45,749 nt of DNA from assembly GCA_002104905.1 (NCBI GenBank), contig MCFE01000685.1:1-45749 (forward strand). Direction: 5' to 3'. Under the pieces are notes generated by a model. The model saw only the letters and a list, made by a program, of their open reading frames with translations. It had not been told where the DNA came from and ran no database searches. Shown here piece after piece: positions 38,130-45,749 of the stretch (its first letter is position 1; each line of letters begins with the position of its first letter). Position numbers and translations under genes: made by a program. The DNA comes from Basidiobolus meristosporus CBS 931.73 (taxonomy: Eukaryota > Basidiobolomycota > Basidiobolomycetes > Basidiobolales > Basidiobolaceae).

Positions 38130-39025
38130 GTTACTGCAACTGTATAAAACGATTAGCTCATGTTGGCATATATCTAGTTTTATTGTAGTAGCAAGCTATA
38201 TATATTAGATAATTAAAGCCATACAGGTGGTAACTATTTCAGAAGGGATTAAAGGCTATTATCCTTGTTCAATGATAGCTTTGTGTGCAGGACATAGGTC
38301 CAATGTGCTTCAAACGCACGTTTAATCAAGTATCTAAAAACTTGATCCTAAGATAACGGCGTCAATAATCTATCAGGTGTTCACGATTGGATTACCAGGG
38401 GTGAAGCTTTCAAGTCAAAAAGGTGAATACAGATCATTCAATCGCATAAGTCATCAATTGAGGTGTATCCTGTATCTGTGTCTTCATAGTTGAGATCGGA
38501 TCCTTAGGCTTATGATCTACGCCTGAACAAAGTGAAATATCAGCATCTGTAATTCTAAAGTATTTCTCTGCATGGGTTTAATCAGAGCGTGATCATGTAA
38601 GAACATTCAGTGATGGGTTGTGGCCACTCTAGCTCCAAAAATAACTTATTTCTTGAGACTTATACATCTTCCTAGGTCTTTTGAGTTGTAGCTGCACTAG
38701 TGGATAGCAGCAACCTATTACTATCTATTCTCGAGATTTTGCTTGTAAAGTGCTACTGTTGTGCATCAACATTTAAAACTTAGCCAATTTTACTCTGCTA
38801 GAAAATCTAGTACCCTAACTGATTTTTCCTAACCCAAATATAACTAATCCCAGTCATGGTTTATTTTATCCCATCTCAGAATCTATTTTTAGTTGTCACA
38901 CCTGATCAATTTTCATATGGTCATTATGTCATCAACTGATCTGCCACACCTTTTCAGGTTATTAGTCATCCAATATCTATCTAGCAACTCAGCAGTTGCC
39001 AAAACATTAGCTGACTGATGATGCA
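38130..39025. other. AT-rich gene-free spacer before the telomeric array
   Basis: No gene or repeat recognised. It ends at GATGATGCA, directly joined to the G-run of the first retrotransposon unit. Confidence 0.5.
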
Positions 39026-39628
39026 GGGGGGGGGAGACAGTCACCAACAGGTGAAATCTTTATTTCAGTTGAAACAAAGAAGCCAGCGCTACTGTTGTAG
39101 CTTTGATACAAGAGTGTGTAGCTGAGGGGAATTTGTAGGTAAGTTAATAAGAAGTGATGATAGTTCTTCAGTGCTCAAGACACTGTTCAGTGGGAAGGGG
39201 GGTAGCAAGAGAGGTAAGAATGACTTGTGAACAACATTAATGAGGGGAATGTGATAAGGATTGATATTCATCATAAAGGGAGTGTGCTGCTGCAGATATT
39301 GCTGCCAAAGGTCTGTCAAGTACTTCAGGTAGGCCAGCTTGGGTTTTTCTGACTGCAGAATATAGTGAGCAAACTTCTTGACTTCAGGATCTCCAAGTAT
39401 AGTTCTCCAGCAGGAGTCAGGTGTAGTGTGGTGTGTTCTCTTCCAGGCCTTAATCAGTGGGTTGTTGCAGTTGTGAAGTCTGAGGTATAATCTGGTTCTA
39501 AGGTAGAGAAGTCTGATCTTATAGGGCATAAACCCAAAAGCACCAAGAATAGCATGTCTGTAGGGGCATTCAGGCAAATGAGGCACCAAGGAGGTAATGC
39601 ACCATACTGCAAACTTGTCAAGCTTAGT
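39026..39628 (-). mobile_element. Telomeric LINE unit 1 (5'-truncated)
   Basis: A minus-strand non-LTR element fragment of about 600 bp. Its 3' end (left side) is a 9-base G run on the + strand, preceded in element sense by AATAAAGATTTCACC and the hairpin TCACC-TGTT-GGTGA. Its 5' side is cut inside an open reading frame and joined directly to telomeric repeats at 39629-39644. The 3' end is nearly the same as that of unit 3, so the two belong to one family. Confidence 0.75.
39089..39628 (-). pseudogene. C-terminal fragment of a LINE protein (probably ORF2)
   Basis: The frame is open from the telomeric junction (39628) to the stop at 39089, about 179 codons with no ATG near its start. It is therefore the 3' part of a longer ORF lost by 5' truncation. 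The protein (for example LDKFAVWCITSLVPHLPECP, then YKIRLLYLRTRLYLRLHNCN) has no catalytic motif. Its position just before the LINE 3' end suggests the region downstream of the reverse transcriptase. It is not obviously similar to the end of unit 2 ORF2, which fits a different family. No function expected. Confidence 0.55.
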
Positions 39629-39644
39629 GGGTTAGGGTTAGGGG
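39629..39644 (+). repeat. Interstitial telomeric repeats between units 1 and 2
   Basis: GGGTTAGGGTTAGGGG, same orientation as the chromosome end. It joins the broken 5' side of unit 1 to the 3' end of unit 2. Confidence 0.9.
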
Positions 39645-39870
39645 TCTAAATTCTTTTATTGAATCTGATCAAGTATAGTAATACTATTTCAACTTGATTC
39701 AAGTTGAAAAGTGCATATTGTATAAAGAAGATATATCTATAGTAATGTGAAGGTAAAATACTGCTCAAGTTGAGTTGAGTTCTGGAAAGAAATTTGTCAA
39801 CAAATCAGGCTAGAAAATGAAGTAAAGCTGGGAGTTATTTGAAAGCAAAGCACTAAGGGAAAGTGTAGAG

Positions 39871-42800
39871 CTACACTACCACTTCCTGAAAGGCAGGGAT
39901 CTCACAGGAAGGCAGAAGCTCAGGTCTAATTGCAGATATGATAGCAGAAAGTCTCTGGATGAGCTCCCTTTGTTTGTGAAATTGGAACAAAGATTGGGTA
40001 TCTTTGAACCCAAAGCAGCTCTCTACATGAGAGAAGTAAAAATACCTGCTACAGTAGGGGCACTTGGAACCCAAGCAAAGTGTGTTCATTCTCCACCTTA
40101 TGGCCTGGAAGGCAAAGAAGGAACTCCTGATGTAAAGGGATATGTCTGCTCCACTATGGGAATGTCTACTCTCATGAGAAATAAGTCCAACTCTGTCTTT
40201 TGAGCTAGTAACTCTGGAGATATTCTCCCGCTTCCTTTTATGCATTGCTACAGAGAGAGGAATATGCTCTCTAGGTGGCTTGGCACTGTTGGAGGCCAGA
40301 TAATCTCTATAACCATCAGGAAAGTGTATCTTCTTTCTCACCAATGACTTTGGGGTGGCTTGGACTAAGTTGTTGGTAATCTTATTGACTAAGATCTTCA
40401 AAGGATTATTGGGTGATGCTTTTGCATAGTGCTGCCCAAATCTGATACCTAAAGTCTCAAATCTGATTGGCACAGCCTCAATACCAGTCAGACTATGTAT
40501 AAGCCTCTGATATTGCCTAGAATGGTAGTCAGAAGCATTGACTACCCAGCCAATAGCTTCTTGCTGCAGAGCTTGTAGCTTGGTAATGAGGTCAGGATCA
40601 GCAACCAAACATATCATAGGAGTAGCATACTCCCAAGATGACCTCACAAAGGCCTTGAATAGCTGTAGCCTAATCAGAGGATGCCATCTGGCCCCTTTGA
40701 GCTGTAGGAATCTCAAAGTGGCAGAAGCCCTTTGAATACACTTTTCAGTGTAAGCTGCCCAAGAAATACCACTTTGACAAGTTGGGAGTCCAAGGTAGCT
40801 GTAAGAGGAAGGTTGAGGCAGAAGGGAGTTATTGAAGGAAATATTCCACTCTGGTGTGGGACCAATGTATGCTGATTTAGCAGTGTTTACCTCCATACCA
40901 TTGGCAGTACACCATTGGCTGACTTTACTCAGCAAACAATTAGCTTCTGAGAGACTCCTAGGCAGCAATTGGATGTCATCAGCAAATAACAGTGCAGAGG
41001 GCACAGCAGCTCCTGAGTCATTGAAGCAGAGACTTTGAGCCAGGTCATCAATATAGATATTGAACAGGATTGGTGAAAGCAAAGATCCCTGGAATAGCCC
41101 CCTGAGCCTGGGAAATGGAGATGATATCACACCATTAACACTAATGGTGGAATAGCAGGCTGAGAAGAGTGAGTGTACAATCCTAAGAAGCTGACTGGAT
41201 ACATTCTGGTTCTTTAGCTTCTTCAGGAGTATTGGGATCACTACCCTATCATATGCTTGCTTCAGGTCAATAAAGATTCTGTGTTTTCTTTCTTCATGAC
41301 CTGATAGGTAAAAAGCATCATGAGATACAACTGAATGTGTTGCAGTAGAGTAGCCACCCCTGAAGCCAGCTTGTGCAGGATGAAACTGGGCCAAGGGGGA
41401 GTCCTTCAAGTGGTTGAGGAGGCAGGCCTCAAATATTCTTCTAAGCATTGGTGTCAAGGCAATAGGCCTGAAGTTGTCAATGGTTGAGGAAGTGGACTTC
41501 TTTGGCAAAGGGTGAATGTGAGAGAGATTCCACTGTGAAGGGGTAAACCCTAGCCTGAGGCAATGATGAAAGAAAATCTTCAAATCATCTATGAAAGCTG
41601 GATTTCTAGCCAAAACCTTGAGAATGCATATATGAAGAGGGTCCAGACCAGCAGACTTGGAAGAGGGATACTTGCTGATTGCAAGAAGAAGAGACTTGGC
41701 AGTGAACCATTGACTATCAGAGAGGGTGTCTTGCATGAAAGTCCCAAATGCTGGAACCCAGCCATCTTTAAGGCAATGAGCAGGTGGGTATGCAAATACT
41801 TCTTGAAAGTAATTGTATGCATCATCCACAGCAGAGATACCAGGATCTCTGGAACTGATTATTACTTCTGCCTGAGTTACCCTTTGAGCTTGCTTGAATA
41901 TCACAGCAGCCTGCTGGGCAGCTGAGGCAGAGTGAAGTCTCCAAAGGGGGTCACTTCTCCTAGGACCAGATTTGGCAGCATGAACTGAGTAAGTTCCCAG
42001 GTACTCCTCACATATGACCAATACCAGGGAGTGGAATGCAGTATAGGCAGCATCAATAGCAGCAGAGATGGTTCCTATAGGAGAACAGGATGTAAGCTCT
42101 TCTAGATGTCTCCAGGCAGTTTGCAGTATAGGAGACTCCAAAGAGTAATGGCTGCTAATGAGTGACTGAACCATAGGCTTCTCTAGTGGCTGAAGATGCA
42201 GCTTGACTGAGTCAGAAGAAGAGAAATTCTGGGTGTTAGAGGAAGAGTAGGCCATTGACATCACAGCAGCCATAAATATATGGTCAGACTGGTCACACAT
42301 AACATCAGACTGGAAGTACCAATGAGCCATTGTGTTGTATCTGACAAAAGCATGATCAGGAGTGCTTCCCAGTGGGATGGGGGGGAGGTGCTCCATACCA
42401 AGTCTTAGAAGAAGACTCTCAAACAAGTCTATTCTACTCCTTGGTCCAACCTTCTTGGAGCCAAAGAGTCTACCAAAGTGAGTGTTGATATCACCAAAGA
42501 GCAGAGTGGGAGGCTGAGTGGGCAGGAATGAGGCAATATCCTGACAGGACATTGAGGGAGGGAAGTAGACAGTCATTAGGCTGACTGACATCAGAGTTAC
42601 ACATATTGTATATTCAGTGCAGGAGACCATGGATATCATTGGCCTCAGATGTGGTGATACTAGACAGATCAGTCCAGCCTTCTCATGACCTGTTATGATT
42701 GGGTTAGGGACAATCCTGTTAGGGCCAATCCTTTTGGAGGTGGCTAGGAAGTATGAGTGTGATGAGTGCAGAGCTTGATCAACAAACCAAGTTTCAGCCA

Positions 42801-42918
42801 GGAAAATTATGTCATATCTATTATTTTTGATTAGGTCAGTGACACCAGACCACTTGTGAAAGCTTAATCCTTGGCAATTCCAGTAGCCAATCTTCAGGGG
42901 CTGGGTAGATGTCATCAT
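39871..42918 (-). CDS. LINE ORF2: apurinic-type endonuclease + reverse transcriptase + CCHC
   Basis: 1015 aa, uninterrupted. An N-terminal APE-type endonuclease (about 8-215) has WNCQGL, LAETW, FGDINTHFG (about 140) and SDH (about 210), the catalytic and metal residues of this fold. The reverse transcriptase (about 470-730) has FRPIALTPMLRRIFE, AQAGFRGGYST, FIDLKQAYDRV (about 551) and the active-site LFADDIQLL (about 641-650). A C-terminal zinc knuckle CPYC...H...C (about 950-965) resembles that of other LINEs. The protein should nick or use target DNA ends and copy its own RNA by target-primed reverse transcription. The start ATG overlaps the stop of the preceding ORF as ATGA. With all key residues present it may be active, although its ORF1 is broken or frameshifted. 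Confidence 0.93.
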   Translation of the reverse strand: MMTSTQPLKIGYWNCQGLSFHKWSGVTDLIKNNRYDIIFLAETWFVDQALHSSHSYFLATSKRIGPNRIVPNPIITGHEKAGLICLVSPHLRPMISMVSCTEYTICVTLMSVSLMTVYFPPSMSCQDIASFLPTQPPTLLFGDINTHFGRLFGSKKVGPRSRIDLFESLLLRLGMEHLPPIPLGSTPDHAFVRYNTMAHWYFQSDVMCDQSDHIFMAAVMSMAYSSSNTQNFSSSDSVKLHLQPLEKPMVQSLISSHYSLESPILQTAWRHLEELTSCSPIGTISAAIDAAYTAFHSLVLVICEEYLGTYSVHAAKSGPRRSDPLWRLHSASAAQQAAVIFKQAQRVTQAEVIISSRDPGISAVDDAYNYFQEVFAYPPAHCLKDGWVPAFGTFMQDTLSDSQWFTAKSLLLAISKYPSSKSAGLDPLHICILKVLARNPAFIDDLKIFFHHCLRLGFTPSQWNLSHIHPLPKKSTSSTIDNFRPIALTPMLRRIFEACLLNHLKDSPLAQFHPAQAGFRGGYSTATHSVVSHDAFYLSGHEERKHRIFIDLKQAYDRVVIPILLKKLKNQNVSSQLLRIVHSLFSACYSTISVNGVISSPFPRLRGLFQGSLLSPILFNIYIDDLAQSLCFNDSGAAVPSALLFADDIQLLPRSLSEANCLLSKVSQWCTANGMEVNTAKSAYIGPTPEWNISFNNSLLPQPSSYSYLGLPTCQSGISWAAYTEKCIQRASATLRFLQLKGARWHPLIRLQLFKAFVRSSWEYATPMICLVADPDLITKLQALQQEAIGWVVNASDYHSRQYQRLIHSLTGIEAVPIRFETLGIRFGQHYAKASPNNPLKILVNKITNNLVQATPKSLVRKKIHFPDGYRDYLASNSAKPPREHIPLSVAMHKRKRENISRVTSSKDRVGLISHESRHSHSGADISLYIRSSFFAFQAIRWRMNTLCLGSKCPYCSRYFYFSHVESCFGFKDTQSLFQFHKQRELIQRLSAIISAIRPELLPSCEIPAFQEVVV

Positions 42919-43625
42919 TGATGAGTAGTGGGAGCTGACTGAGAATGATGCTGATCATCAGCTACTGAGACAGGGTCAGGTAAGGGATCAGGCTCATGTT
43001 CATGATCTAAACTAATCATGATCTCATCAGGATTTGCTGAGGTGGTAATGGTTGATTCATTGGTGATAATTGGGAAGCCAGTCTCCTTAGCCAAATCAGT
43101 CAGGTAAGACTTGTATGTGTCTCTGTTTGACATGTTGTAAGACTGCTGCAGTCTTCTTGCATATGCAGCCTTCACTTGCTCAGCCACAATGGGAGTGGCT
43201 TCAGGGTCCAAGGGCTTGGAAGGATCTACCTTGCCAAGTAGTTTGAGAAAGGGGTATTTCTTCACTTTAGCAATGAATGAGTAAGCATACTCAGTAGAGA
43301 GAGTGAACTCTAAAGTATTTCTTCCTATGAAGTTGATACTCCATATCTTGGATAGTTGAAATCTGAATTCAAAGAGGATAGATTTCACCTGCCTTATTGG
43401 TTGATGCCTAATACCTTGAAGGTACATCCTACAGACTTTGTGGTTGACCTCTGCCTTTGTGCTGGTAAAGGGAGGCTTTGCACCAACACAAAGTCTCATA
43501 GCAGCAGTCAGTCTGTTGATTTCTTCTTTGGAGCCAGTCTTGGCATTTTTCTTTGCTATTTCAGCAAAGGTAGGTCTTCTGTATGGCTGAGTTGCTGGTT
43601 GGGAAGTGACTCTGCTTGGTGTGGG
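42915..43625 (-). CDS. LINE unit 2 ORF1, C-terminal part (separate frame)
   Basis: The frame is open from 43625 to the stop at 42915 (236 codons) and overlaps the end of the upstream ORF1 frame by 70 bp. The first ATG is at 43499, but a PTFAEIAKKNAKTGSKEEIN stretch typical of LINE ORF1/Gag lies before it (about 43525-43580), so translation probably enters from upstream. After it comes a domain with KVCRMYLQGIRHQPIRQVK, FEFRFQLSKIWSINFIG and LEFTLSTEY, probably an RRM-like nucleic-acid-binding fold, then an acidic, Pro-rich tail. The stop and the ORF2 start share ATGA, a layout used for termination-reinitiation in other LINEs. Confidence 0.7.
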   Translation of the reverse strand, partial: PTPSRVTSQPATQPYRRPTFAEIAKKNAKTGSKEEINRLTAAMRLCVGAKPPFTSTKAEVNHKVCRMYLQGIRHQPIRQVKSILFEFRFQLSKIWSINFIGRNTLEFTLSTEYAYSFIAKVKKYPFLKLLGKVDPSKPLDPEATPIVAEQVKAAYARRLQQSYNMSNRDTYKSYLTDLAKETGFPIITNESTITTSANPDEIMISLDHEHEPDPLPDPVSVADDQHHSQSAPTTHQ

Positions 43626-44419
43626 TTACTCTGGGTGGTTTGGACTAGGTTTGTACTGGAGCCACTGTGAGGAGAAGCTATATTGGTCCCAGATTGCCTA
43701 GTCAAAGGAGACTCCATTGGTGCTACTGTAGGCTTTCCTGAATCATGAAGGATGGCACTAAGTTGGACTTGTTGATTTTTGACAATACTCTTGAGCTCTT
43801 GCACTTCTTTCTGTTGCTCAAGAAGATGCTCCATGATTGTTGTTAACTTGGTGAGTCTGGAGTCCAAGATGGAACAGGTCTCTCTCAGAAGACTTAAGCT
43901 TTGCTCCACTTGTGAGCTAGCTTCTTCAGAAGGAGATGGTTGAAGTTGAGTTGGAGAAGACATATGTTGCTGAGGAAGATTATCCAGAGAGGAAGTTGAT
44001 TGTAAGGAAGAAGAGTTTGACCTTCTCCTCTTTTGTACACTTGCAGTTGTATCAAGGGAACCTCCAGAAGGCTGTTCCAGTGCAAGCAAAGACTCATGAA
44101 AGACTGATAGCTGAGGGGTCTCCATGGGATCAGAATCAGAGTTATTCAGTGGTAGGGACTTGTCAGAAGAGAGTAAGGGAGCAGTGGGAAGCTGTGAAGC
44201 AAGCTGGCCAAGACATTGTGTCCAAAAGTGAGAAGCCTTGTATTTGGTAGAGCATTGCTTGCACTTGAAGCAACCATAGGTTCCTCTACCAGACCCATTT
44301 GAGTCTTTGGTAAATGCTGCACCTGGTCCAGCACCACACTTGGGGTAAGAAGCCAGAGTTTTATCAGAGTTGTATGTTTCCAATACAGTTTTGGCAGGCT
44401 CTTCTAGCCAATACCACCC
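43556..44419 (-). CDS. LINE unit 2 ORF1, N-terminal part
   Basis: The frame is open from the telomeric junction to TAG at 43556, about 287 codons, with no ATG near the beginning; the first in-frame ATGs are well inside. The telomeric CCCTAA itself supplies the in-frame stop just upstream. Near the start is a Cys-rich patch, YPKCGAGPG...YGCFKCKQC...FWTQC, resembling a zinc ribbon with one cysteine missing. A Ser/Thr-rich stretch follows, then a coiled coil (about 185-240: QVEQSLSLLRETCSILDSRL, MEHLLEQQKEVQELKSIVKN). It matches the oligomerising half of a LINE ORF1 protein. The nucleic-acid-binding half continues in the -1 frame. Either a programmed shift or a real lesion separates them. Confidence 0.65.
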   Translation of the reverse strand, partial: GWYWLEEPAKTVLETYNSDKTLASYPKCGAGPGAAFTKDSNGSGRGTYGCFKCKQCSTKYKASHFWTQCLGQLASQLPTAPLLSSDKSLPLNNSDSDPMETPQLSVFHESLLALEQPSGGSLDTTASVQKRRRSNSSSLQSTSSLDNLPQQHMSSPTQLQPSPSEEASSQVEQSLSLLRETCSILDSRLTKLTTIMEHLLEQQKEVQELKSIVKNQQVQLSAILHDSGKPTVAPMESPLTRQSGTNIASPHSGSSTNLVQTTQSNPHQAESLPNQQLSHTEDLPLLK

Positions 44420-44431
44420 TTAGGGTTAGGG
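44420..44431 (+). repeat. Interstitial telomeric repeats between units 2 and 3
   Basis: TTAGGGTTAGGG leads straight into the G run (44429-44435) that is the 3' terminus of unit 3. Confidence 0.9.
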
Positions 44432-44521
44432 GGGGATGATCATCACCAAAGGGTGAAATCTTTATTTAAATAATAAATAAAGAAGCCAAGTTTGAATATG
44501 AATATCTGAGATGCAGGAAGC

Positions 44522-45322
44522 CTACAAGATAAACTTGGACTTTGCTGTATCCCAAATATCCTCAATATCAAAGTCTAGAGGAGAGTGTAGCAAGACTGCT
44601 TGTTCACTGTAGTATTTCTTGAGGAAGTTTGTGACTTGAAGGGAAGGAGAGTTTTTCAACAAGCTGGTAAATCTTTTGAGGAGTTCTTTTTCCAGAGAGA
44701 ATGGCACAAAGAGTGGAATGTCCAAATGATGTCTGAATATATGCTCTGAGAGCTCCCAATCCAGCATATTTATGACTTCTTCTGTAAAATCTTCAACAAT
44801 ATCTTTGTCAAGAATAACTTCCAAGAGATCCCTGGCAATGTACTGAATGTTAATAATCTTGGGCATATGAATACCTAGGTCCTTGAGGTAGTTTCTTTGT
44901 TCTGATATTGGGAGATATCCTGCATTTCTGAAATAGCAAACAGCCCAGTTGGCAGTAGGAGGAGTATCAGGGCTGACAGGGAATCTTCTTCTAGCTTTAG
45001 AGTGCACTGGCTTAGGAGACTGTCTTGATGCAAGGGCAGCTGGTTTTGGATGAGCTTGAAGTGCTTGGGAGTAGGTCTGAGTACAAGTAGTAGAAGTTCC
45101 TGGTTGCTGAGAATTTTCAGATTGACTGGATGTAGAGCTAATTGAGGGGTTGCAAGGTAAGGAAGAAGCTGAAAGAGAAGTGGAGAGGGCTGGGTGAAGT
45201 TCAGAAAGAGTTTTGAAAAGAATTTGGATCTGAGATTTCAACATTGAGTTTTCAGCTTCAAGAAGAGAAACTCTTTGTTCAAGGTAAGAAGTCTGTAAAG
45301 AGTGAAAGTTGGGTAAAGACAT
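44522..45322 (-). CDS. LINE ORF1-like protein of unit 3
   Basis: 266 aa with a proper ATG start. An N-terminal coiled coil (about 10-42: LEQRVSLLEAENSMLKSQIQ) is followed by a Ser/Thr/Pro-rich linker and a basic patch (KPVHSKARRRFPVSP). The C-terminal domain of about 120 aa has NWAVCYFRNAGYLPI, YLKDLGIHMPKIINIQYIAR and LLEVILDKD. This pattern parallels the ORF1 C-terminal half of unit 2 (helix, ILxI strand, LE strand), suggesting an RRM-like RNA-binding fold. It probably forms an RNP with element RNA. No zinc knuckle is seen. It is the only ORF of the unit, so a reverse transcriptase would have to come from elsewhere. Confidence 0.7.
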   Translation of the reverse strand: MSLPNFHSLQTSYLEQRVSLLEAENSMLKSQIQILFKTLSELHPALSTSLSASSLPCNPSISSTSSQSENSQQPGTSTTCTQTYSQALQAHPKPAALASRQSPKPVHSKARRRFPVSPDTPPTANWAVCYFRNAGYLPISEQRNYLKDLGIHMPKIINIQYIARDLLEVILDKDIVEDFTEEVINMLDWELSEHIFRHHLDIPLFVPFSLEKELLKRFTSLLKNSPSLQVTNFLKKYYSEQAVLLHSPLDFDIEDIWDTAKSKFIL

Positions 45323-45366
45323 GGAAGTAGTAAATAAGAAGAAAGGAGTAGTTGGGGTGGGAGGGT

Positions 45367-45557
45367 GGGAAAATAGGTAAGAAGAAACAAGAGGAAAGAT
45401 CTGAAATTTAAAATCTCAGAATTTATAGATGGATGGACAAGGGTAGAGGATAGATTAATCCAGGGTTAGGGAAAAATAGGTAAGAAGAAACAAGAGGAAA
45501 GATCTGAAATTGAAAATCTCAGAATTTATAGATGGATGGACAAGGGTAGAGGATAGA
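45367..45557 (-). repeat. Tandem duplication of the unit 3 5' leader
   Basis: Two nearly identical copies of about 89 bp, at 45367-45455 and 45469-45557, differ at a few positions. They are separated by TTAATCCA and a single GGGTTAGGG block. Both end at the same element 5' terminus (GGATAGA on the + strand). Confidence 0.9.
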
Positions 45558-45749
45558 GGGTTAGGGTTAGGGTTAGGGTTAGGGTTAGGGTTAGGGTTAG
45601 GGTTAGGGTTAGGGTTAGGGTTAGGGTTAGGGTTAGGGTTAGGGTTAGGGTTAGGGTTAGGGTTAGGGTTAGGGTTAGGGTTAGGGTTAGGGTTAGGGTT
45701 AGGGTTAGGGTTAGGGTTAGGGTTAGGTTAGGGTTAGGGTTAGGGTTAG
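45558..45749 (+). repeat. Terminal telomere, (TTAGGG)n
   Basis: About 32 TTAGGG units running to the end of the window, G strand pointing outward, with one shortened unit (TTAGG) near 45723. This marks the chromosome end. Confidence 0.98.

Follow-up and report, generated by a model that had tools for sequence, protein, structure and literature searches.

The window analysed here, a stretch of 45,749 nt of contig MCFE01000685.1 from the fungus Basidiobolus meristosporus CBS 931.73, ended in an array of three retroelement units of the same polarity (39026–45557), with chromosomal DNA on one side and a terminal TTAGGG tract on the other. Read outward from the centromere-proximal side, the final 7 kb was composed of a dispersed repeat, nine G residues, unit 1, two TTAGGG repeats, unit 2, two TTAGGG repeats, unit 3, and the terminal tract. 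The main open frames of the three units were all on the minus strand, and therefore the 3′ end of each unit was directed toward the centromere. Further copies were searched in the genome assembly (89.0 Mb, 1311 contigs), and labels such as C554 and C836 denote contigs of this assembly. Arrays of the same families with differing composition were present on many other contigs.

Unit 1 (39026–39629, minus strand) was the 5′-truncated 3′ end of a long interspersed nuclear element (LINE), designated LINE B. It contained the last part of open reading frame 2 (ORF2) as an open frame of 180 aa (39089–39631, minus strand) and a two-hairpin 3′ tail (39041–39079, minus strand), comprising hairpin 2 (HP2, 39041–39054) and hairpin 1 (HP1, 39058–39079). 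On its centromere side, unit 1 was preceded by a G-run (39026–39034) without TTAGGG, and the junction read GATGCA, nine G, AGACAG. The adjoining dispersed repeat (38757–39025) was broken off at GATGCA(G). Over 38757–39022, this repeat had at least 40 other matches with 83–88% identity (40 scored out of 746 first-look candidates). Five of six other fetched copies continued past the break point, and the sixth had a deletion there. This junction has the appearance expected of a broken end that a LINE has covered. A separate 604-bp element at unit 1 was considered and rejected, because its recurring limit was only the end of the query and LINE B continues beyond it.

Unit 1 was followed by the separator GGTTAGGGTTAGGGG (39630–39644, plus strand) and by unit 2 (39645–44419, minus strand), a nearly complete LINE A, whose 5′ end may be truncated as the frame was open to the boundary. 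The ORF2 of LINE A was a single open frame of 1027 aa (39871–42954, minus strand), with an endonuclease domain (approximately 42280–42885, PF03372) and a reverse transcriptase (RT) domain (approximately 40786–41505, PF00078). The ORF1 region (42915–44419, minus strand) consisted of two overlapping frames (42915–43625 and 43556–44419). In the C836 copy of LINE A, the overlap (window 43556–43625) was read in one frame, and the ORF1 of the window copy therefore probably carries a frameshift.

The second separator, TTAGGGTTAGGG plus GGGG (44420–44435, plus strand), was followed by unit 3 (U3; 44436–45556, minus strand), an ORF1-only element without an RT. U3 contained a two-hairpin 3′ tail (44443–44482, minus strand; HP2 44443–44456 and HP1 44460–44482) and an ORF of 266 aa from the first ATG (44522–45322, minus strand), whose product was homologous to the C-terminal region of ORF1 in LINE B. 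At its 5′ end was a 103-bp tandem repeat of 1.8 copies (45370–45557, minus strand) with one internal GGTTAGGG per repeat. The terminal TTAGGG tract (45557–45749, plus strand) extended for 32 repeats to the contig end. The motif TTAGGGTTAGGG occurred at 39632, at 44420, and throughout the terminal tract, with 30 matches in the window compared with an expectation of 0 from 100 shuffles.

The initial annotation of this end had described three LINE units of the same polarity between unique DNA and the terminal tract, each bounded by short TTAGGG tracts. The order and polarity of the units were borne out. The short TTAGGG boundaries were present at 39630 and 44420 and were missing on the centromere side of unit 1, and the proximal DNA was a dispersed repeat instead of unique sequence. 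The units were not three LINEs of one kind and belonged to three different families, namely a truncated LINE B, LINE A, and the RT-less U3.

LINE families, U3 and the SINE

The ORF2 of LINE A matched both RVT_1 (PF00078) and Exo_endo_phos (PF03372) over the Pfam cut-off. Its nearest named relatives were LINE-1-like elements of Smittium (Harpellales), with 39% and 48% identity, the name being taken from automatic annotation. LINE B was represented by a long copy of 4.4 kb (C554, 92399–96805), of which the 5′ end met TTAGGG and the 3′ end met a 5′-truncated piece of a short interspersed nuclear element (SINE), itself located on TTAGGG. In this copy, the ORF1 frame spanned 523 codons, and the RT-bearing ORF2 region was split in two frames. 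A third family, LINE C, was found distally in C836 (RVT_1, 1.4e-20), and P0038 (K493DRAFT_348252, B. meristosporus CBS 931.73) was a relative of it. The RT was present in both B and C, and an endonuclease was found only via P0033, a near relative of C, with PF14529 just over the cut-off.

The ORF2 identity was 48% between B and C, and 29% between A and either of them in the RT. In a 128-row RT tree, which had no rows labelled R1, CRE, Tad, L1, MoTeR, SART, or TRAS, LINE A formed one clade with the Smittium proteins and B/C formed a separate clade, and the two were joined with 93% support in the Shimodaira–Hasegawa-like approximate likelihood ratio test (SH-aLRT). When compared with solved RT structures, among which clades other than L1 and R2 were not represented, A scored 68.1 bits to L1 and 53.1 bits to R2, and C scored 44.6 and 23.9 bits, respectively. 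Pfam scans of A and C detected no C-terminal restriction-enzyme-like (REL) endonuclease domain; no REL motif scan was made. The endonuclease domain of A was N-terminal and of the apurinic/apyrimidinic endonuclease (APE) type.

Two other groups of sequences resembled LINE A. A diverged subfamily in C411, C490, C523, and C543 had 52–57% amino acid identity to A ORF2, and these copies were within 7 kb of the left contig ends in telomere polarity. The end of C45 carried an uncharacterised unit of ~850 bp (positions 41–901 of C45:18150-19100), which began at TTAGGGG with TTCTAGTGCTTTATTGGG. This start was somewhat like the LINE A 3′ end, and apparent tandem repeats were present at the distal end. 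The C45 unit could be a passenger of LINE A.

The U3 frame contained no RT and no Pfam match over the cut-off, and U3 therefore does not qualify as a LINE by itself. Across 155 aligned columns, its protein showed 30% identity to the C-terminal region of the LINE B ORF1 protein (E 7e-18). The relatives found in a protein search were three proteins of Basidiobolus ranarum, of which the best match had 61% identity over 99%. Copies of U3 were mostly 92–99% identical, and the frame was intact in 27 of 30 full-length copies. The ratio of the mean nonsynonymous to the mean synonymous divergence (dN/dS) among 28 gapless copies was 0.29 for pairs below 3% divergence (230 pairs) and 0.19 for pairs at 3–15% (146 pairs), the pairs not being independent. 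These ratios point to purifying selection on the U3 frame. With a selected ORF1/Gag-type protein and no RT, U3 is, by analogy, a HeT-A-like Gag-only telomere element. An RT-less element with a selected protein must be moved by the RT of another element, and the 3′ tail that U3 has in common with B/C points to B or C as the mover.

The number of 5′ tandem repeats in U3 was variable, with 1.8 in the window, approximately nine in C459, and more than in the window also in other copies (C459, C1003). Each 103-bp repeat in the window contained TTAGGG and a TATAAAT-like stretch on the sense strand, and the 5′ repeats may therefore be tandem promoters.

The SINE, of ~520 bp and without an RT or endonuclease of its own, was noticed through its 3′ end, which resembled those of units 1 and 3. 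It had RNA polymerase III-type boxes near the 5′ end, an A box at position 12 with two mismatches to the consensus and a B box at position 55 with no mismatches, and none of 1000 first-order Markov sequences contained boxes as good. The B box was present in all 20 5′-complete copies. The default ARAGORN search of the SINE gave 0 tRNA genes, and a search of Rfam at E ≤ 1 gave no tRNA among two weak matches, which were far below the gathering score and were taken as chance. Three tRNAs proposed by the permissive intron mode of ARAGORN were discarded as implausible. The 5′ end CTTGG was followed directly by TTAGGG in 16 of 19 full-length copies, and 17 of 20 5′-complete copies were flanked by CTAA on the sense strand. 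Tandem copies of the SINE were spaced near 527 bp.

The 3′ tails of B, C1, C2, U3, and the SINE were built alike and differed from the tail of LINE A. The common tail consisted of GGCTTCTTT, HP1, ATT, HP2 (TCACC/GGTGA), and a run rich in pyrimidines with C at its end. Base pairs of HP1 were counted by a script with anchored stems, as the MAFFT alignment of the tails split HP1, and 61 of 63 distinct tails were counted with two skipped. Pair 9 was C-G in 13, A-T in 33, G-C in 14, and A-C in one, and was thus paired in 60 of 61 tails; pair 5 was A-T in 48 and G-T in 13. These counts follow the families, and the pair changes therefore represent few events. Both hairpins were drawn by RNAfold in one sequence from each of five families. 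A SINE carrying the 3′ tail of its partner LINE is a known principle in other organisms. The present SINE resembled such pairs in that a short element carried the hairpin tail found at the 3′ end of an autonomous LINE, and differed from them in its location at telomeres.

Polarity, junctions and chromosome ends

All 60 matches to the SINE body (370 first-look candidates, 40 scored) lay at most 6.8 kb from a contig end, with the 3′ end facing away from it, and the SINE was found at both ends of C424 in mirror image. Similarly, all 26 of the best LINE A copies among 46 matches were in telomere polarity and within 24.7 kb of an end. In contrast, a Copia fragment used as a control showed telomere polarity in 14 of 29 copies, with 11 of 40 rows dropped because the contig size was not known. 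The LINE A count includes the window copy, and the SINE and Copia counts include the place of the query itself. Copia copies were also enriched at contig ends, and therefore proximity alone is weak evidence and was rejected as such, whereas polarity is the informative measure. Among the best 65 of 225 places with a B/C-type RT, 59 were on the minus strand, and 28 of the 31 with known contig size fitted the rule that the nearest end sets the polarity. The copy in C323 missed this rule only because its contig is short.

The 3′ ends were collected by a script search for the tail hairpins in 232 kb of fetched DNA and the window, which gave 131 ends on 51 contigs; most of these loci had been retrieved with A and U3 as queries, and the counts give no genome-wide rate. 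Of 41 tails labelled B by rule, one is a SINE. The tail directly adjoined TAGG(G), in one phase, in 119 of 131 cases. The separators contained no repeat in 12 cases, one in 74, two in 32, three in three, four in eight, and five in two, and ten complete terminal tracts were 118–236 bp long. Remnants of random insertion within a tract of ~30 repeats were rejected as the source of the separators on these counts, the maximum being five repeats. The tails were on the plus strand in 127 cases and on the minus strand in four, all four within 2.2 kb of left contig ends. Six of the 131 tails were placed on clearly non-telomeric sequence, including unit 1 of the window on the broken repeat. For LINE A, all 12 3′ ends had TTAGGG within 40 nt, nine of them directly; one of 13 rows (C193:4769) was dropped as it was not a 3′ end.

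Twenty telomeric ends were also sampled, out of the first 25 telomeric contigs, with the TTAGGG tract as the sole basis of choice. C23, C82, C180, and C183 were left out as they were already listed with U3, and C35 was left out as its tract was on the reverse strand. At 16 of the 20 ends a family adjoined the sampled tract, namely B at ten, the SINE at three, C at two, and a U3-like element at one. The sampled tract of C110 was ~760 bp from the contig end and hence internal. The genome also encoded a telomerase domain, Telomerase_RBD on C880, with 40.5 and 34.7 bits at a cut-off of 25, which was detected in none of 14 control genomes.

The initial annotation had proposed a telomere-specialised LINE lineage in this fungus and a survey of copies for TTAGGG abutment and end position. 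The survey was in agreement with this, as the tail junctions, the polarity of the SINE and LINE A, and the mixed polarity of Copia supported specialisation for telomeres, with exceptions for LINE B in C558, C726, and C217. The single lineage had to be replaced by three LINE families or more (RT identity between A and B/C was only 29%), together with the RT-less U3 and the SINE.

Proposed mechanism and its alternatives

The observed polarity, junctions, end enrichment, common tail, ORF1 homology and selection, and telomerase domain form the basis of the following interpretation. A likely interpretation is that the end of the window exemplifies a retroelement community living at telomeres, built up by end-primed reverse transcription, recapping by telomerase, and movement of passengers in trans. 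The autonomous LINEs (A; B and C) would supply the endonuclease and RT proteins. The C-run at the end of the element RNA would anneal to GGG in a TTAGGG 3′ overhang, or to a broken end bearing G, and the RT would copy the RNA outward from that DNA 3′ end. An element placed in this way would have its 3′ end toward the centromere and often a truncated 5′ end. Telomerase would then add TTAGGG, and the new end could take the next element. U3 and the SINE would most likely be mobilised in trans by the B/C enzyme through the common tail. The elements may also be active at present.

Cutting by an endonuclease inside TTAGGG tracts, in the manner of SART/TRAS or MoTeR, followed by breakage or shrinkage of the long interstitial tracts, is an unlikely source of the arrays. 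The single phase of the 119 TAGG(G) junctions agrees with it. The APE-type domain of A and the PF14529 match just over the cut-off in P0033, the near relative of C, also fit this explanation. In addition, MoTeR arrays of Magnaporthe oryzae are reported to break where interstitial tracts reach three repeats but not where they have two (PMC7367193), which would yield the separators seen here, 118 of 131 of which had two repeats or fewer. Against it, six of the 131 tails, including that of unit 1, were on non-telomeric sequence, and no long proximal remnant was present among the 131 separators. Both end priming and cutting inside the tract may occur. Spread of the arrays chiefly by recombination between ends, through break-induced replication or unequal exchange and with only little current retrotransposition, is quite unlikely. 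The high identity of U3 copies and the spacing of the SINE tandems speak for it, and MoTeR arrays are described as undergoing recombination and amplification by D-loops (PMC7367193), whereas the many distinct 5′ truncation points and neighbour combinations, the attachment to non-telomeric ends, and the selection on the U3 frame argue against it. Recombination may well add to retrotransposition.

It is improbable that U3 arose passively by deletion from LINE B or C and that its protein has no function. The tail and the ORF1 domain that it has in common with B would suit such an origin, but the identity to B ORF1 is only 30% over 155 columns, 27 of 30 frames are intact, dN/dS is 0.19–0.29 (from non-independent pairs), and a full-length relative occurs in B. 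ranarum. An assembly effect, in which repeats break contigs and so pile up at contig ends, would explain why Copia was also near the ends, and it is highly improbable as the cause of the confinement. Against it stand the polarity of the SINE (60/60) and LINE A (26/26) relative to Copia (14/29), TAGG(G) at the tails, and terminal TTAGGG tracts beyond the arrays.

Several observations weigh against the proposed end priming and confinement to telomeres. Copia was within 10 kb of an end in 21 of 29 copies, so that end proximity is partly an assembly effect. One LINE B copy in C558 was 97 kb inside a 218-kb contig and fitted the end rule only nominally, and the copies in C726 and C217 broke it. At three of the 20 sampled ends (C58, C81, and C114) other DNA was found at the tract, and C45 had the uncharacterised unit. 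The 131 junctions came from loci chosen by the elements themselves, and the short separators could be survivors, given the breaks reported at three or more interstitial repeats in MoTeR arrays. In the tail, pairs 6 and 7 of HP1 were unformed in the SINE, and the invariance of HP2 was required by the search pattern.

The interior or inverted B copies (C558:96300-98500 and C726:57900-59500) had CCCTAA on the 3′ side. The C558 copy was joined to U3-like sequence and the C726 copy to the 5′ end of a full-length SINE. Both are possibly old chromosome fusions or misassemblies.

A wider interpretation is possible and is put forward tentatively. In this interpretation, a complete end-extension system would operate beside telomerase, composed of autonomous LINEs of two deep RT branches, a selected Gag-only element, and an RNA polymerase III-type SINE. 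It would act on bare or nearly bare 3′ ends by pairing of the C-ended hairpin tail with the G strand, healing breaks and lengthening chromosomes, and would represent a hybrid between telomerase telomeres and telomeres of the Drosophila type.

Comparison with other systems and further chromosome ends

SART and TRAS of the silkworm are APE-type LINEs in telomerase-type telomeric repeats, with many copies of one polarity. The Basidiobolus elements shared with them an APE-type endonuclease LINE in telomeric repeats and the single polarity, and differed in that no remnants of long repeat tracts were present on the inner side. In Drosophila, HeT-A, TAHRE, and TART form head-to-tail arrays of Gag-only and RT-bearing elements on chromosome ends, with the 3′ ends inward. 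The mixed array of Gag-only and RT-bearing elements and the inward 3′ ends were common to both systems, as was the possibility of attachment to ends without telomere repeats (see PMC5537684 for the Drosophila elements). In contrast to HeT-A/TART, the host here keeps TTAGGG tracts and a telomerase domain, most junctions were at TAGG(G), and a SINE takes part. The absence of telomerase and the retrotransposon-only telomeres that characterise HeT-A/TART were thus not found.

MoTeR, FoTeR, and CNL1 are telomeric LINEs of fungi according to the available portions of five reports (PMC12857005, PMC12810828, PMC7367193, PMC8381367, PMC4700185). In the available text on MoTeR1 and MoTeR2 (PMC7367193), these are telomeric non-LTR (long terminal repeat) elements of a fungus with TTAGGG telomeres, with their 5′ ends nearest the chromosome end, short TTAGGG tracts between array members, frequent 5′ truncation, and a second element that has terminal sequence in common with the RT-bearing one. 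All these features were shared by the arrays described here. However, MoTeR1 is described with an REL endonuclease (PMC7367193) and groups with CRE/SLACS-type elements (PMC12857005), whereas LINE A has an APE-type domain. MoTeR2 has both 5′ and 3′ sequence in common with MoTeR1 (PMC7367193), whereas U3 resembles B in its 3′ tail and in an ORF1 domain that has diverged. A SINE is not mentioned in the portion available (PMC7367193) and was located at the ends here.

FoTeR of Fusarium oxysporum and CNL1 of Cryptococcus neoformans are LINEs that occupy chromosome ends and have telomeric motifs where they join the chromosome (PMC12857005, PMC12810828), and the upstream tandem repeats of FoTeR (PMC12857005) resemble the 103-bp repeats of U3. 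As far as these parts extend, FoTeR differs in its REL domain, its grouping with MoTeR1, CRE, and SLACS, and its 3′ ends with 3–7 repeats, compared with mostly one or two here, and CNL1 differs in being placed nearest MoTeR.

Retrotransposons are found in place of telomerase in Drosophila, whereas MoTeR and SART are guests of telomerase telomeres. In Basidiobolus, a selected Gag-only element and a SINE occupy the same ends as several autonomous LINEs and the TTAGGG repeats. If the broken-end interpretation is true, the step from telomere parasite to telomere maintenance would be testable in a fungus with many chromosome ends. The shared hairpin tail also provides a concrete handle on the choice of RNA and target by a LINE. 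No title or abstract opening described such a system of telomeric retroelements in Basidiobolus or Zoopagomycota, subscription literature being outside the search, and no description of a telomeric SINE was found in the literature searched. Under the wider interpretation above, the SINE would be the first telomere-specific SINE in that literature. Telomeric LINE arrays are of a known kind. The present lineage and its set of passengers were not found described in the papers searched and appear to form a richer variant that is new, in which the surprising parts are the telomeric SINE and, alongside telomerase, the Gag-only partner.

Two minor observations concern the contig ends in general. Matches to four repeats of TTAGGG were found 7428 times on the forward and 81 times on the reverse strand across the genome, corresponding to right contig ends, and the left contig ends may have been trimmed by the assembler. 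At C81:17000-17950, a terminal TTAGGG tract was placed directly on Copia-like sequence, as in the healing of a broken end by telomerase.

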